Origin: an uncultured Pelagibacteraceae bacterium
GTDB lineage: Bacteria; Pseudomonadota; Alphaproteobacteria; Pelagibacterales; Pelagibacteraceae
Direction: 5' to 3'
NCBI GenBank assembly: GCA_902571015.1
Contig: CACGAC010000005.1
Coordinates: 1-64,000, forward strand
Length of the DNA stretch: 64,000 nucleotides
Shown: in pieces, positions 20,150 through 62,001 of the stretch
How the letters are laid out: every line of letters begins with the position of its first letter
How positions within the stretch are numbered: position 1 is the stretch's first letter
Notes under the pieces: model-generated
The model's database searches: none
Told to the model about the DNA's origin: nothing
Seen by the model: only the letters and a program-made list of their open reading frames with translations
Made by a program: the position numbers and the translations under genes

Positions 20150-22761
<2,612 letters not shown>

Positions 22762-44573: not shown

Positions 44574-45494
44574 TTATGCTATTGATCTAAGCAAACTTCT
44601 ATTTATTAATGTATGTGGAAGTGTTCTTTCTTGAATTTCGATAATTGAAAAATTTTCGTTATTTTCAAATACTTTTCTTAACAAACTATTTGTAAGATAA
44701 TGACCGCCCTGTGAACAATTAACACTGGCTAACATTCTGTAGCCAGTTGTATATAGGTCTCCAATACAATCTAGTATTTTGTGATTTACAAATTCTTTTG
44801 AATTTCTTAAACCCTCTGAATTTAACACTTCCCCACCTTTAACAACTACCGCATTTTCTAAACTTCCACCTTTGGCAAGACCATTTTTTTTGATTTTTTC
44901 TATGTCTTCGTAAAGACAGAAAGTTCTTGATTCAAAAATTTCTGTTAGATCATCCTCATAAACATTTTTTTTGTTTCTTTGATTTCCAATAATTTGATTT
45001 TGATATTTTAATTCAAAATCGATGTCCAAACTTAATTTTGAAGGTTCAATTGAAATAAATTTATCACCATTTTTGAATTCAATTTTTTTGTGAATCTTAA
45101 TTATTTTGATAGGTTTATTACTTAGCTCTAAACCTGTGGTTAATATTTCTTCTATAAAAACTTTCGCTGAACCATCTAAAATTGGTACTTCCTCATTATC
45201 AATTTCAATCAATGCATTATCAATTCCAATTCCAAATAAAGCCCCCATTAAATGCTCAATAGTAGAAACTTTCACTCCATTACTATTACTGATAGTGGTG
45301 TTCAAAGCTGTATTACTCACATTCATAAAATTTGGGTAAATTAGATTGTTGTTTTTTAGATCTATTCTTTTGAATACAATGCCAGTGTCTGGACTTGATG
45401 GTTTGACACAAATCTTAGCTGGTTTTCCTGAATGAAGACCTATACCACTGAAGGATACAGGATTTTTAATAGTTTTTTGGTTTAATAAAGACAC
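44574..45494 (-). CDS. lpxC: UDP-3-O-acyl-N-acetylglucosamine deacetylase
   Basis: LpxC is the committed step of lipid A synthesis. The 306-residue protein contains IEHLMGALFGIGIDNALIEI (zinc-binding His and following strand, about 79-98), SRTFCLYEDI and the C-terminal NHKILDCIGDLYTTGYRM, which holds the second His and Asp zinc ligands. The start is a GTG at 45494; an ATG two bases upstream is out of frame. It follows the ftsA-like gene by 63 bases that include an AT palindrome (45516-45531). In other alphaproteobacteria ftsZ stands between ftsA and lpxC; here it does not. Confidence 0.96.
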   Translation of the reverse strand: MSLLNQKTIKNPVSFSGIGLHSGKPAKICVKPSSPDTGIVFKRIDLKNNNLIYPNFMNVSNTALNTTISNSNGVKVSTIEHLMGALFGIGIDNALIEIDNEEVPILDGSAKVFIEEILTTGLELSNKPIKIIKIHKKIEFKNGDKFISIEPSKLSLDIDFELKYQNQIIGNQRNKKNVYEDDLTEIFESRTFCLYEDIEKIKKNGLAKGGSLENAVVVKGGEVLNSEGLRNSKEFVNHKILDCIGDLYTTGYRMLASVNCSQGGHYLTNSLLRKVFENNENFSIIEIQERTLPHTLINRSLLRSIA

Positions 45495-45557: not shown

Positions 45558-46259
45558 TTAGTTAAAAAAATTAAAGAATCTCTCAAAAAATCCTAATTTT
45601 TTTGAGTATTTATTTGTGATATATACCTCATTTTGATTAAAACCATCTAAGATTTTTTGCGCCATCACATACAAATTATCATTTTCATTATCTAAAAAAC
45701 TATTTAAGTAATCTAGGCTCAATATTTTATCCAAAGATATTTGGTATTTTCTAAGAACATCTTCAATAGTTTTTGAGATCCGTTTAGGTATACATATATA
45801 ACTAACTTCAATAGAAAGACTATTACAATTTTTTTTTTCTGGTAAAGTTTCAAAGTAAGTTCCATCAATATAAAACTTATCAATCTTCATATGAAGAATA
45901 TCAAGATCTTCTAGAGTTTTGTTACAGCAACTTTTTGCCTCTAATATTAATTTATGTATAGAATTAGAATCTATAATAATATTATCAAATTTATTTTTAA
46001 TAGATAAACAAATTGGAAAAATATTCTGATGATCAATAATCAAAAAAATATTTTTGACAAATTCATTAAGTTTTTTTTCTATCTTAAAAATATTTTCATT
46101 AAGGAAATTATCTAAAAACTCCAACTCGATTTGATTGTTCTGATTATTTCTTAATTTTTCTTCTTTATAAACAAACTCATTAGTAGAATTTATTGCAACA
46201 ATCGTAAATTTATTAATTCCTAAAAAAAGAAAAATCTTATTTTCTAAATTATTTACCAT
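45558..46259 (-). CDS. Reduced FtsA-like division protein (1C-type domain plus amphipathic helix)
   Basis: At the ftsA locus (after ftsQ, 11-base overlap) is a 233-residue protein, far shorter than FtsA (about 420). Residues 9-25 mimic the first FtsA strands but lack the phosphate-binding DIGTT. The middle resembles FtsA domain 1C: DSNSIHKLILEAK, then DILHMKIDKFYIDG (120-133), comparable to RVLHVIPQEYAID in E. coli FtsA, SLSIEVSYICIPKRISKTIEDVLRKYQISLDKIL for the following strand-helix pair. After residue about 195 the ATPase subdomains 2A/2B are missing. It ends KKLGFFERFFNFFN, an amphipathic helix like the FtsA membrane anchor. The assignment is by position and remote pattern. If right it cannot bind ATP in the normal way and lacks the FtsZ-binding 2B part. 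Confidence 0.55.
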   Translation of the reverse strand: MVNNLENKIFLFLGINKFTIVAINSTNEFVYKEEKLRNNQNNQIELEFLDNFLNENIFKIEKKLNEFVKNIFLIIDHQNIFPICLSIKNKFDNIIIDSNSIHKLILEAKSCCNKTLEDLDILHMKIDKFYIDGTYFETLPEKKNCNSLSIEVSYICIPKRISKTIEDVLRKYQISLDKILSLDYLNSFLDNENDNLYVMAQKILDGFNQNEVYITNKYSKKLGFFERFFNFFN

Positions 46260-46923
46260 TTAATATTATTTGATCTTTTTGACGGAAATCAATTACTAAT
46301 TTATTCTTAAACTCATCTTCATTAGATAAACGAACAAACAAGTTTAGATCTTCTTTAACATCATTTCTCGATAATTTTATCAAATATCCCTCTGATGTTT
46401 CAATATCCCATCTTTTTGATTTGAAATAATATAGATTTATTATTTTTTTAAAATCAAGGTTTGATTTATCAACTTCATTCTTAAATTTTAGAAATTCTTT
46501 AACATTTAAATCACCAAACACAAATGGTAGATCAGAAATTGAATAATCATTCAGAATTAATTTTCCATTTGATCCTATAAAATAATTGAAACCATTTTTT
46601 TTTGTTTGTGCAAGTATTTTTGTTTCCTTTATAAATATTTTTAAAGTTGAGGGATAATTTTTAAATATTTCAAAATGCTCAATAATATTAATCGAATTGA
46701 TCTTTTTTTTTAAATATTGTTTATCTAGATAAAAAATATTTTTAAAATTTGCATCATTAATAATACTTTCAATTTTTTTTCTCTCATTTAGATTTATACC
46801 AATAATCTCTATTTTATTTATTTTTGGAAAATTGAAATTCATCAATGAAATATTGTTTATTGATACAAGAAAACAAAATAGTAATAAGTAAATTATAATT
46901 TTTTTACTTATTAATAGATGCAT
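46249..46923 (-). CDS. ftsQ: Cell division protein FtsQ
   Basis: The 224-residue protein has one membrane helix (about 8-28) and a periplasmic POTRA domain, beginning FPKINKIEIIGINLNERKKIESII (about 33-56), followed by the INIIEHFEIFKNYPSTLKIFIKE phrase typical of FtsQ/DivIB. FtsQ bridges cytoplasmic and periplasmic division proteins and recruits FtsB-FtsL and FtsW-FtsI. It overlaps ddl by 20 bases and the ftsA-like gene by 11. It is a little shorter than usual, mainly in the cytoplasmic tail. Confidence 0.88.
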   Translation of the reverse strand: MHLLISKKIIIYLLLFCFLVSINNISLMNFNFPKINKIEIIGINLNERKKIESIINDANFKNIFYLDKQYLKKKINSINIIEHFEIFKNYPSTLKIFIKETKILAQTKKNGFNYFIGSNGKLILNDYSISDLPFVFGDLNVKEFLKFKNEVDKSNLDFKKIINLYYFKSKRWDIETSEGYLIKLSRNDVKEDLNLFVRLSNEDEFKNKLVIDFRQKDQIILNGK

Positions 46924-54676: not shown

Positions 54677-57520
54677 TTAATTTAAACCCTTCAAGTTTTT
54701 TACTATACTGTTGAAACCTGTCGCATTTGAGGCTTTTATCATTAAATAATCATTATTATTGAAATCTTTCTTAATTAATTCAAAAATTCCTGATTTATTT
54801 TCTAAAATTCTTCCTCTTTTTACTTTCACAATATTATAGAATATTTCTCTTACCATTTTTCCCATAACAAATACTTTATCAATATTTGTCTCGTTTATTA
54901 AAGGAACTATTGATTGGTGAAGTTTTTTTGAATGTGAACCAAGTTCCATCATATCTCCAAGCAAAAGATATTTACGATATTTTTTTGTATCTATATTGTC
55001 ATAATTTTTTAAGGCTGATTTTAAAGATAGAGGATTAGAATTATAACTTTCATCAATTAAGTTTATTTTTTTTTTACCTATCTTTATTGTAAAATGATCT
55101 CCTCTTCCTGCTGGACTTCTAAAATCTAAGAAAATTTTTTCATTAAGTTTAAGCACATCTTTGTAAATACTTATTACACTTAAAGCGCTTAAAATATTAT
55201 AAATATTACTTTGAAAATTATTAGAAATTATAAAATATTTAAACTTATCATTAAGTTTAACTTTAATTTTAAATGCCTTTTTAACTTTTTTAATATTAAA
55301 CAACTTAACATTTGCTTTTTTAGTTTTAATCCCAAAAGAAATCACATTAATATTATTATTTTCAGCAATTTTTTTATGTAATTTGAAAAAACTATCATCA
55401 GCATTCAAGACAACAAAACCATTGGGTAATATATTTTTAATTATCTCTGCTTTAGCTAAAGCAATTTGTTTGATATTTTTGAAATTTTTTGCATGTGCAT
55501 AATTTACGTTAGTTATTAAGCCAACATTCGGTTTTATAATATTTGTTAAATTATCTATTTCCCCTTTTTTATCCATACCAACCTCTAAAACTCCAAATTC
55601 ATCACTATGTTTTAAATTAAGTAAACTTAATGGAACTCCAAATTTATTGTTATATGATTTTGGAGAAATACTAACACTAGAAATCTTTCCTAACACATTG
55701 CCCAATAATTCTTTGACAGTTGTTTTTCCACAACTTCCTGTAATAGCTATAATATTTGTATCGATATTTTGTCTAAATATTTTTGAAATTTCAGTCATAA
55801 ATTTTAATGTATTTCTTACTTTTATCTGACGTTTGCTATTAAATTTATTTTGAACTTTATTTACTACAACTAATGATGCTTTATTTTTAAATGCCTCTCC
55901 AATATATTTATTTCCATCATTTTTTTTTCCTTTAATAGCAAAAAAGATATCATTCTTATTTACCTCTTTAGAGTTAATTCTTGCTTTATCTGCTTTTACT
56001 AAAGGGATTTTACTTTTGATTTTCGATAATTCTTTAATAATGTTAATTTTAAAGTTTTTTGATAAGTTTGTATTCTTAAGTTTAATACAATCTAAAATAA
56101 TTTTTTTATCTGAAAAATAAATTTTCTTTTTACCAAAATCTTGAGTTTTCTCATGACCTTTTCCAGCAACCAACAAAATATCACCTGTATTTAAATTTTT
56201 TATGGCCTCAGAAATAGCTTTTTTTCTATCAGGAATTTCTTTTATCGAAGTGTCTTGAATACCCTTTTTAATATCATCTCTTATTTTTCTTGGATTTTCA
56301 AATCTAGGATTATCATCTGTTAAATAAATTTCGTTAGAATAATCACATGCAATCTTTCCCATTTTAAATCTTTTATTTTGATCTCTATTTCCACCACAAC
56401 CAAAGAGTAAAATTATTTTTTTATTTGGAAATTGCTCTTTAAGGTTTGAAAGACATATTCTAAGTGCATCTGGTGTGTGTGCATAATCAAGTATTACTTT
56501 AGACCTATTTTTGATTTTACCTATTTTTTCAAGTCTTCCATCTATTGGCTTAAGTTGTGATAAAACATTTAGAATCTTGATTAAACTTATATTGCTATTT
56601 TTTGCTCCAATAATCGCCATTAAAATATTTTTTAATTGTATTTTTCCAATAAGATTTAAATTTATTTCTCTTGTAAGATTATAGTATCTAATTTTTAATA
56701 TTTGTTTCTCACCTCTATAACTATGAGATAAAATTTGAAATTGATTTTTGCTATTATTTAAAACCTGCAATTTCAATTTTCTAGAAATTGCGATTTTTTT
56801 TATTCTTTTAAATTCTGGTAATGTTTCATCTGTTATTACACTTCCTTTCTTTTCTATCAAATTTTCAAAGAGGTACAGTTTGGCTTTAAAATATTCTTTA
56901 AAGTTTTTATGATAATCTAGGTGATCTTGAGATAAATTTGTGAAAATACCAGATGAAAACTTTAGACCATCCAACCTATGTTGAATTAGACCATGGCTGG
57001 ATGCCTCCATAATTACGTTATTAATTTTTTGAGATTTTAATTTAGATAATATTTGTCCCATTCGAATTGGGTCTATCGTAGTATTTTGTAAATTTCGTCT
57101 TATATTTTTCGATTTTACACCTAATGTTCCGATTGAGGCGACTTTTATTTTATTAAGTTTTAACAATTGAAAATAAAAATCTGAAACAGATGATTTTCCA
57201 TTTGTTCCAGTTACAGCAATTAAATTATTTGGTTTATTCTTATAAATTTTAAAAGCGATTTCTGCTAAAAGTTTTCTTATATTTTTAGTATGAATGAATA
57301 AAATATCCTTTTGAGGATTTGTAATTCTTTTCTCGCTTATAATAATTTTAGAGCCTTTTTTTATTGCAATAGAAATGAATTTATTTCCATCAAAATTATT
57401 CCCTTTTATAGCAAAAAAAATATTATCTTTTTTAATATCTTTTGAATTGAATGAAATCCCTGAGAAAAAAATTTTTTTTTTACTATTATCTATATTGGTA
57501 AAATAATTGCCTAATAACAT
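54677..57520 (-). CDS. murE-murF: Fused MurE-MurF peptidoglycan ligase
   Basis: One uninterrupted 947-residue frame carries two complete Mur ligases. Residues about 1-480 are MurE: P-loop TGTNGKS (104-110), EASSHGL, and DNPR (403-406), the motif that marks meso-diaminopimelate as substrate. Residues about 490-947 are MurF: substrate domain RINSKEVNKNDIFFAIKG, P-loop ITGSCGKTT (593-601), LEVGMDKKGEID and LIDESYNSNPLSLKSAL. No stop, start-site or frameshift lies between, and the junction (about 480-500) is only some 20 polar residues. The fused enzyme would add DAP and then D-Ala-D-Ala in succession. Such fusions are known in some bacteria. It lies 2 bases after ftsI. Confidence 0.95.
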   Translation of the reverse strand: MLLGNYFTNIDNSKKKIFFSGISFNSKDIKKDNIFFAIKGNNFDGNKFISIAIKKGSKIIISEKRITNPQKDILFIHTKNIRKLLAEIAFKIYKNKPNNLIAVTGTNGKSSVSDFYFQLLKLNKIKVASIGTLGVKSKNIRRNLQNTTIDPIRMGQILSKLKSQKINNVIMEASSHGLIQHRLDGLKFSSGIFTNLSQDHLDYHKNFKEYFKAKLYLFENLIEKKGSVITDETLPEFKRIKKIAISRKLKLQVLNNSKNQFQILSHSYRGEKQILKIRYYNLTREINLNLIGKIQLKNILMAIIGAKNSNISLIKILNVLSQLKPIDGRLEKIGKIKNRSKVILDYAHTPDALRICLSNLKEQFPNKKIILLFGCGGNRDQNKRFKMGKIACDYSNEIYLTDDNPRFENPRKIRDDIKKGIQDTSIKEIPDRKKAISEAIKNLNTGDILLVAGKGHEKTQDFGKKKIYFSDKKIILDCIKLKNTNLSKNFKINIIKELSKIKSKIPLVKADKARINSKEVNKNDIFFAIKGKKNDGNKYIGEAFKNKASLVVVNKVQNKFNSKRQIKVRNTLKFMTEISKIFRQNIDTNIIAITGSCGKTTVKELLGNVLGKISSVSISPKSYNNKFGVPLSLLNLKHSDEFGVLEVGMDKKGEIDNLTNIIKPNVGLITNVNYAHAKNFKNIKQIALAKAEIIKNILPNGFVVLNADDSFFKLHKKIAENNNINVISFGIKTKKANVKLFNIKKVKKAFKIKVKLNDKFKYFIISNNFQSNIYNILSALSVISIYKDVLKLNEKIFLDFRSPAGRGDHFTIKIGKKKINLIDESYNSNPLSLKSALKNYDNIDTKKYRKYLLLGDMMELGSHSKKLHQSIVPLINETNIDKVFVMGKMVREIFYNIVKVKRGRILENKSGIFELIKKDFNNNDYLMIKASNATGFNSIVKNLKGLN

Positions 57521-60534: not shown

Positions 60535-62001
60535 TTAATTTTTTTGTCTTCTTAAAAATGCTGGTATCTCTAAATCATCCTCCTGATCATCATTATCCTG
60601 CGATAAAAAATTTTCTGGGGAAGATGTTTCGTTTTGAGAACTAAATAAATCTGGTGCATCCCTATCTACCCCAAACTCTTTTAAATCATCTTTTATCTCA
60701 TCTTCTTGAGTTGATTCTCCAACAGCTTCTTGTGTGAAAGAACTTTCCTCATCTTTTTCAGTGTTTTCAACTAAGCTTTCAACTTGTTGGTTCTTTAATA
60801 GTTCCTCATGATATTGATCATTGATTTGATTAATATTTTGATTTGCAACAGTCTCACCTAGATCTTCAGTCGTAATTTCATTCTCTAATTTTAAAGCATT
60901 TGCTCCACTCGAAATAGGAGCGCTAGTTGAAAAATTAAAAGAAGTATTAGATCCTAAATTGGAAAAATCAGAATATCCAGGGTTTCTATTTTGAATCCTG
61001 TGTACCATATTAATCACTGATTTTGTCTCAGGCTGTTGTCCGTCTAAAGCAGTTGCAACAATTGATACTCTTATTTTACCTTCAAGAGATGGGTCAGTTA
61101 TTGCACCTATAATTACCTCAGCATCAGCCTCAACTTCAGACCTTATTTTGTTAACTACTTCGTCGACTTCAAACAACTTAAGATCTTTGCCACCTGTGAT
61201 ATTGACAAGTAATCCCTTCGCACCTTTTAAAGTATAGTCATCAATTAAAGGATTGCTGATTGCCATTTCTGTAGCTTTCATAGATCGACCCTCACCTTCA
61301 GCTTCTCCTGTGCCCATCATAGCTTTACCCATAGATGCCATAACTGTTTCAACATCAGCAAAATCTAGATTAATTATTCCGGGTCTTACCATTAAATCAG
61401 TAACGCTTTGAACACCATGCATTAAAACATTATTTGATAAGTTAAACGACTCTTCGAATGTAGTTTGTTCATTTGCTATTTTAAACAAATTTTGATTTGG
61501 AATTACAATAATAGTATCTACATGTTTTCTTAATTCCTCAAGACCAATTTGAGCTCTTCTCATTCTTGATGGACCCTCATATAAAAATGGAAGTGTTACT
61601 ACGCCAACAGTTAAAATGTTTAATTCTTTAGCGGCTCTTGCTATTACATGTGCAGCACCAGTTCCTGTTCCACCACCCATTCCAGCGGCTATAAAAACCA
61701 TATTTGCGCCTTGTAAAACATTAACGATATCATTTAAAGACTCATCGGCTGCAGCTTGACCTATGTCAATTTTAGCACCTGCACCTAGGCCTTTAGTTAA
61801 ATTTAAACCAATTTGAATTTTTGATTTTGCTTTGCTATGTTTAAGATCTTGTGCATCAGTGTTAACAGCAATGAATTCAACCCCTTGCATTCCATTTTCA
61901 ATCATTTCGTTTATTGCATTTCCACCTGCACCACCGACTCCCATTACTAAAAGTCTTGGTTGTAACTCTCTGATCTCTGGAGTTTTAAAGTTAATTGTCA
62001 T
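60535..62001 (-). CDS. ftsZ: Tubulin-like division protein FtsZ
   Basis: FtsZ polymerises with GTP into the division ring. The 488-residue protein has the nucleotide-binding [10 protein letters not shown] (21-30), the tubulin signature GGGTGTG (109-115), and the T7 catalytic loop [12 protein letters not shown] long acidic, low-complexity linker (about 330-470) precedes the C-terminal peptide [12 protein letters not shown], the docking site for FtsA, ZipA and other partners. The start has a strong ribosome binding site. The gene is second in the cluster, directly after mraZ, not after ftsA, which is unusual. Confidence 0.98.

Follow-up and report, generated by a model that had tools for sequence, protein, structure and literature searches.

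In cell division FtsA is taken to work in two ways, polymerising with ATP and tethering FtsZ via subdomain 2B, and it is disputed which of its roles is essential. In E. coli, Z-ring assembly is reported to fail once FtsA has lost its nucleotide-dependent activities (PMC10213515), which makes a natural loss of these activities surprising. The region that binds FtsZ is contained in 2B, as stated in a figure legend of PMC8998562. The window, i.e. the whole stretch of 64,000 nucleotides analysed here, carries a frame of only 233 residues at the place of ftsA. This locus raises the questions of whether such a short protein is an FtsA, whether it is maintained, and what then holds FtsZ. The features of the locus are listed below.

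44574..45494, minus strand: lpxC, the downstream neighbour of the reduced ftsA (TIGR00325 over its cut-off)
45558..46259, minus strand: reduced ftsA, 233 residues, ATG start, comprising domain 1A and 1C and a C-terminal helix, with 2A/2B excised
46249..46923, minus strand: ftsQ (POTRA_1 and FtsQ_DivIB_C over their cut-offs)
60535..62001, minus strand: ftsZ, with its C-terminal peptide

The original prediction had placed a genuine frame at the ftsA locus after ftsQ, and this proved correct: the frame is intact and its start shares 11 bases (46249–46259) with ftsQ. The strand (minus) had not been given. The reduced ftsA is one of the last genes of a cell-wall and division cluster with the order mraZ, ftsZ, rsmH, ftsL, ftsI, murE-murF, mraY, murD, ftsW, murG, murC, murB, ddl, ftsQ, reduced ftsA, lpxC and bamD, in which the names rsmH, mraY, murD, ftsW, murG, murC and ftsI represent our own reading of the sequences. 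The ftsZ gene of the window has mraZ and rsmH as its neighbours and is some 14 kb away from ftsA, and the distance is about 15 kb in the relatives inspected that have both genes on one contig (e.g. G045, G043, G060, and G033). Within the same cluster, murE and murF are fused (54677–57520, 947 residues); the bifunctional model NF008896 gave 914 bits and its cut-off of 1023 was not reached. The genome of the window (G000) has 1,120,457 bases on 22 contigs and is 92.75% complete. It belongs to SAR11: the nearest named relatives of the 233-residue protein are from Pelagibacteraceae single-cell genomes, such as AG-447-F10 with 92% identity. Among 106 loci with both neighbours, the spacing between ftsQ and lpxC is bimodal, being either 694–904 bases (70 loci; both extremes stem from the choice of the lpxC start codon) or 1133–1255 bases (36 loci), and no other gene is located in between. 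Full-length FtsA of the same genus (368–399 residues) occupies the same position between ftsQ and lpxC as the short form.

No Pfam family matched the 233-residue protein at E ≤ 10. A search of 61 genomes of the genus gave relatives in 41; leaving aside copies truncated at contig ends and the broken one of G012, their frames measure either 231–237 or 377–398 residues. The long relatives are FtsA, as all 37 match PF14450 and TIGR01174 at E ≤ 0.1 and their profile retrieves solved FtsA structures with a best E value of 2.7e-17. The HMM-HMM comparison proposed with the original prediction gave a clear result: the profile of the short forms (A3, 68 rows) matched that of the long relatives (A4, 37 rows) with a probability of 100 and an E value of 2.8e-39 over long positions 1–185. 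Many short ORFs (231–246 residues) match a full-length FtsA profile (A1, 13 rows) in two stretches within one frame, the first up to about 180–205 and the second from about 341–350 to about 388–391. In the 233-residue protein the second stretch covers positions 346–391 of the full-length profile (E = 5.5e-4). With TIGR01174 (ftsA), 55 of the 68 short forms reach E ≤ 1, the best value being 1.9e-13 and that of the 233-residue protein 0.0012 (18 bits). The NCBIfam matches of the short forms are mainly FtsA. The curated cut-offs (175.85 bits for TIGR01174 and 31.8 bits for PF14450) are not reached by the 233-residue protein; a full-length FtsA of the genus (L028) is also below the former (99.6 bits) but above the latter (53.7 bits). 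With the Pfam model of 1C (SHS2_FTSA), 16 of the 68 short forms reach E ≤ 0.01, and the protein of the window is not among these.

The structure of the 233-residue protein was predicted with AlphaFold2 from A3, giving a mean pLDDT of 84.5 and a pTM of 0.79 with low values only at both ends. The top 19 matches of this model in a Foldseek search against solved structures in the PDB were all FtsA; a search with a full-length FtsA model served as the control. Residues 5–207 superpose on residues 7–389 of Vibrio FtsA (7q6i_B) with 201 aligned residues at 2.9 Å and Z = 12.7, which indicates that the model covers domain 1 at both ends of the FtsA chain. The expected structural match to 1A and 1C was thus obtained. 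The 233-residue protein is homologous to FtsA over 1A and 1C and its gene directly follows ftsQ, two properties that mark FtsA. The gene of the window is the ftsA orthologue of a SAR11 (Pelagibacteraceae) species, cut down to domain 1 (1A and 1C) and a C-terminal helix. Its parts map onto the window as follows.

46032..46247, minus strand: N-terminal 1A part, residues about 5–76 (alignment and secondary structure; borders approximate)
45786..46022, minus strand: subdomain 1C, residues about 80–158 (profile alignment and model; borders approximate)
45690..45785, minus strand: 1A segment after 1C, residues about 159–190, with Y184 present in 68/68 short forms
45681..45698, minus strand: junction left by the loss of about 150 residues of 2A/2B (profile gap)
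45624..45680, minus strand: final 1A helix with the GFNQNEV segment, residues about 194–212 (alignment and full-length profile)
45561..45599, minus strand: C-terminal F-rich helix GFFERFFNFFN, a presumed membrane anchor (pLDDT low there, about 46–52)

The 1C segment DILHMKIDKFYIDG named in the original prediction is present in the frame. The view that only 1C and an anchor were left has to be revised, since domain 1 survives whole: besides 1C, the N-terminal sheet and helix of 1A and its last helix are retained. The GFNQNEV segment is homologous by alignment to ICESAxKLxxGxNKQEV of the nearest full-length FtsA. The predicted absence of 2A/2B appears as a gap of about 150 residues in the alignment to the full-length profile inside one frame, and the missing residues hold the phosphate-2 and GxGS motifs and correspond to 2A and 2B. 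The phosphate-2-like and GxGS motifs are each present in 36 of 37 full-length proteins and in none of the 68 short forms. The distance from Y184 to G206 is 21–23 residues in all 68. The loss of the phosphate-1 motif was confirmed as well: D11, G13, and R18 occur in 34, 37, and 35 of the 37 full-length relatives and in 1, 6, and 0 of the 68 short forms. The 233-residue protein has FLGINK where the full-length L028 has DFGSSK, and one locus (L073) retains DLSS at this position. Residues kept in the short forms are (in full-length numbering) E56 (67/68), H118 (66/68), Y179 (68/68), F363 (68/68), F367 (68/68), and F370 (65/68). In the C-terminal helix, F225 and F229 are present in all 68 short forms and F232 in 65, and over the last 16 residues the hydrophobic moment does not exceed that of shuffled sequences (p = 0.15 for the window; p ≤ 0.05 in 4/68 short forms). 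Lacking the ATP site and 2A/2B, the reduced FtsA should neither bind ATP, nor form the known actin-like filament, nor hold FtsZ via the known 2B site.

The distribution of the two forms was examined in the genus and across the order. In the genus, the A1 profile found a match in 136 of the 201 genomes. Among the matches listed, a hand count gave full-length FtsA in 46 genomes and domain-2 pieces in three more (G126, G143, and G185); the remaining 87 have either domain-1 or C-terminal matches only, some of them cut by contig ends, or just weak matches. Across the order, 170 of 198 genomes of at least 80% completeness match the FtsA profile. Among the matches listed order-wide, short forms occur in the genus of the window only, and frames in the other genera are 396–420 residues long except for one of 320 residues at a contig end. 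Two further readings were considered. Complete loss of FtsA in the genus was not supported: of 11 genomes without a match that were examined for it, ten also lack lpxC, which probably reflects an assembly gap, and in the other lpxC lies at the beginning of a contig. Regarding further shrinkage of FtsA, several frames of 44–170 residues are cut by contig ends. In the sister genus g5, a protein of 376–399 residues is encoded upstream of lpxC in nine genomes (L239–L241 and L243–L248). It is an FtsA, being matched by TIGR01174 in 9/9 cases and aligning along its length with full-length FtsA (E = 6.8e-19). The ATP-motif patterns used for the other FtsA proteins were found in 0/9. It represents another, distinct kind of FtsA degeneration within the order, in which full length is kept and 2A/2B-like sequence therefore remains. 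As neither the short forms nor the g5 proteins have ATP motifs, two SAR11 lineages gave up the ATP site, and one of them domain 2 also.

The g5 proteins fit the view that SAR11 is slowly losing FtsA, domain 2 first, and that the remainder has at most a minor role. The rapid divergence of the short forms agrees with this view (just 26–54% identity to the protein of the window in 63 of 67), as does the disruption of two of the 70 short loci flanked by both neighbours, namely those of G012 (frameshift at a T/A run) and G140 (stops). However, the other 68 have an intact frame of 220–244 residues (L143, whose lpxC start was misread in the spacing count, is included), and several parts of the protein contain residues constant in 65–68 of the 68. 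Using a Nei–Gojobori script on pairs that we picked by hand for closeness, dN/dS was 0.13–0.32 in short pairs (n = 18) versus 0.13–0.31 in full-length FtsA pairs (n = 10). The flanking genes in the short pairs gave 0.03–0.09 (lpxC) and 0.10–0.72 (ftsQ), so the values of the short forms are within the full-length FtsA range and mostly within the ftsQ range. The reduced ftsA is maintained under purifying selection, as the original prediction had supposed in preferring a maintained form over a pseudogene, and we consider a mere relic improbable. In the single-contig genome G012, a T7A8 run breaks the reduced ftsA (L032:3763–4462) into two frames of 75 and 174 residues, which may be due to decay, slippage or an error of sequencing. 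G010 has a full-length ftsA (L109) that is interrupted by an internal stop, its frames being 183 and 89 residues long.

Another reading is a protein divided in two, with 2A/2B encoded elsewhere and joining in trans; no finding speaks for it. The full-length profile finds one locus only, with neither a second FtsA copy nor a separate 2A/2B at E ≤ 1, in five single-contig short-form genomes (G203, G205, G213, G012, and G082). This reading is largely refuted, and we give it hardly any credence. One FtsA locus was likewise found with this profile in the window's own genome at its 92.75% completeness, in line with the expectation that full-length ftsA would be missing elsewhere. A candidate second FtsA, a PF14450 match at 20231–20704, falls in mreB and was discarded.

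Trees were used to estimate how often the short form arose, with the short and full labels assigned by hand, as were the FtsA classes for the FtsZ-peptide count described below. In a FastTree tree of five neighbour proteins (106 loci), the form must have switched between long and short at least three times, and a single short-form clade was rejected (p-AU = 0.023) in a subset of 34 loci that we chose; L030, which matters there, is filled in just 48% of the columns. For FtsA domain 1 (105 proteins) the tree requires two changes, and a single short-form clade was not rejected for the same protein region in the 34 loci (p-AU = 0.304). The nearly equal junction length in the 68 short forms favours a single origin and subsequent exchange. 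The data fit either several deletions or one that was followed by allele exchange.

The original prediction had concluded that this cell must anchor FtsZ in another way. In structure 4a2a, according to its title, Thermotoga FtsA is bound to FtsZ(336–351), and the C-terminal peptide of FtsZ is the FtsA-binding part. FtsZ was found in 49 of the 61 genomes and in 18 of 18 chosen genomes. The C-terminal peptide EIPAFLRRQ is present in all 22 short-form genomes examined, where 12 codon versions occur, and is thus held by selection on the protein. It is also present in 14 of 14 genomes with full-length FtsA (12 of the genus and two of sister genera), in G012 (frameshifted short form), in G010 (disrupted full-length form), and in eight genomes of unsettled FtsA class. 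A longer, 12-letter C-terminal form of FtsZ is one and the same in 12 of the 14 genomes with full-length FtsA and is listed separately for the two of sister genera. In two g5 genomes the C-terminal peptide is FEIPAFLRKQKF. Searches with Pfam models for the tethers proposed for checking, SepF and ZipA, gave a match in 0/61 genomes each, while the models detected 7 and 1 of 14 named control genomes, respectively.

These observations might be explained by a rewired tether, in which the reduced FtsA anchors FtsZ via a new 1A/1C site for the peptide or another part of FtsZ, without ATP control. In favour of it, every short-form genome examined keeps the peptide even though FtsA has lost its known site for it, and the presumed membrane helix is retained as well; neither ZipA nor SepF was detected in the 61 genomes, and the genomes examined have a single FtsA locus each. 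Nevertheless, the peptide is identical in genomes with full-length FtsA, and a new site that needs an identical peptide is a less simple assumption than an older second ligand. In addition, the GxNxNEV segment of the short forms is present as GxNKQEV in the nearest full-length FtsA and is consequently not new to the short form. We regard such rewiring as rather unlikely.

The simplest reading is that the reduced FtsA is an adaptor and that FtsZ has another tether. FtsN binds Vibrio FtsA in the IA–IC cleft by its cytoplasmic tail (PMC7613929). The reduced FtsA keeps both walls of the 1A–1C cleft in addition to the presumed membrane helix. It would sit on the membrane by the C-terminal helix, and the retained 1A–1C surface may serve as the adaptor to a membrane protein of the divisome. 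FtsZ would be held by another tether that reads the same unchanged C-terminal peptide; this tether would already have been present in the genus and would have made 2B dispensable. On balance we lean towards an adaptor between membrane and divisome acting via 1A–1C, with an older, different tether holding FtsZ. Several results count against this explanation. The hydrophobic moment at the C-terminal end does not stand out from shuffles, as described above, and the search for ZipA and SepF revealed no other tether. Several domain-1 columns that are conserved in full-length proteins are relaxed in the short forms, namely D71 (28/68), S81 (51/68), K84 (43/68), F164 (17/68), S178 (9/68), and K181 (24/68). 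FtsN itself was not recognised in the 61 genomes, where FtsN as the cleft partner was rejected: all 11 SPOR matches are lipoprotein-like, and the one examined, from the window's own genome, matches the RlpA model below its cut-off. In the search for FtsE, ABC-ATPase matches were found in 61/61 genomes and none was over the cut-off, which 7 of 14 controls pass. SAR11 may be without both FtsN and FtsE.

In effect, nature has deleted a domain of FtsA in many species, and the genus itself supplies full-length relatives that can serve as controls. Whether signalling can be separated from tethering thereby becomes open to test, and the locus hints at a possible new FtsZ tether in SAR11, which is among the most abundant bacterial groups of the ocean. 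Tentatively, and with nearly as much reason for as against, SAR11 FtsA could be described as a protein without ATPase cycle, filament, and tethering domain, whose divisome-facing half has been split off while an undiscovered tether holds the FtsZ peptide. G211 (full-length), G213 (short), and G012 (frameshifted short) are presumably strains HTCC1062, HTCC7211, and HIMB5, respectively; if the first two identities are true, both forms are available in culture. The open-licence literature searched contained no account of a reduced FtsA in SAR11, and the available parts of PMC2877005 and PMC7203096 contain nothing on it.

The reduced FtsA was compared with known FtsA (TIGR01174, PF14450, and PF02491; structures from E. 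coli, Vibrio maritimus, Thermotoga, and Staphylococcus). Both share the place after ftsQ, the fold of domain 1A and 1C, the C-terminal F-rich helix, and descent. Unlike known FtsA, the reduced form has no phosphate-1, phosphate-2 or GxGS motif and no 2A or 2B, and it is below the curated cut-offs. The full-length FtsA of the same genus (e.g. G211 with 369 and L028 with 371 residues) is encoded at the same locus but keeps 2A/2B and, in most of the 37 proteins, the ATP motifs; the nearest of them share the GxNKQEV-type segment and a GFFEK helix with the reduced form. The g5 FtsA has lost the ATP motifs as the reduced form has, whereas it keeps full length (376–399 residues). The next actin-like relatives after FtsA in fold searches are the cytoplasmic domain of GspL/EpsL from type II secretion and PilM, which belong to another system and another gene context and match more weakly (Z = 9.1–11.1 versus 12.2–14.9 for FtsA); 145–155 residues of GspL/EpsL align with the model at 3.6–3.8 Å. 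EpsL/GspL is a membrane adaptor that does not bind ATP.
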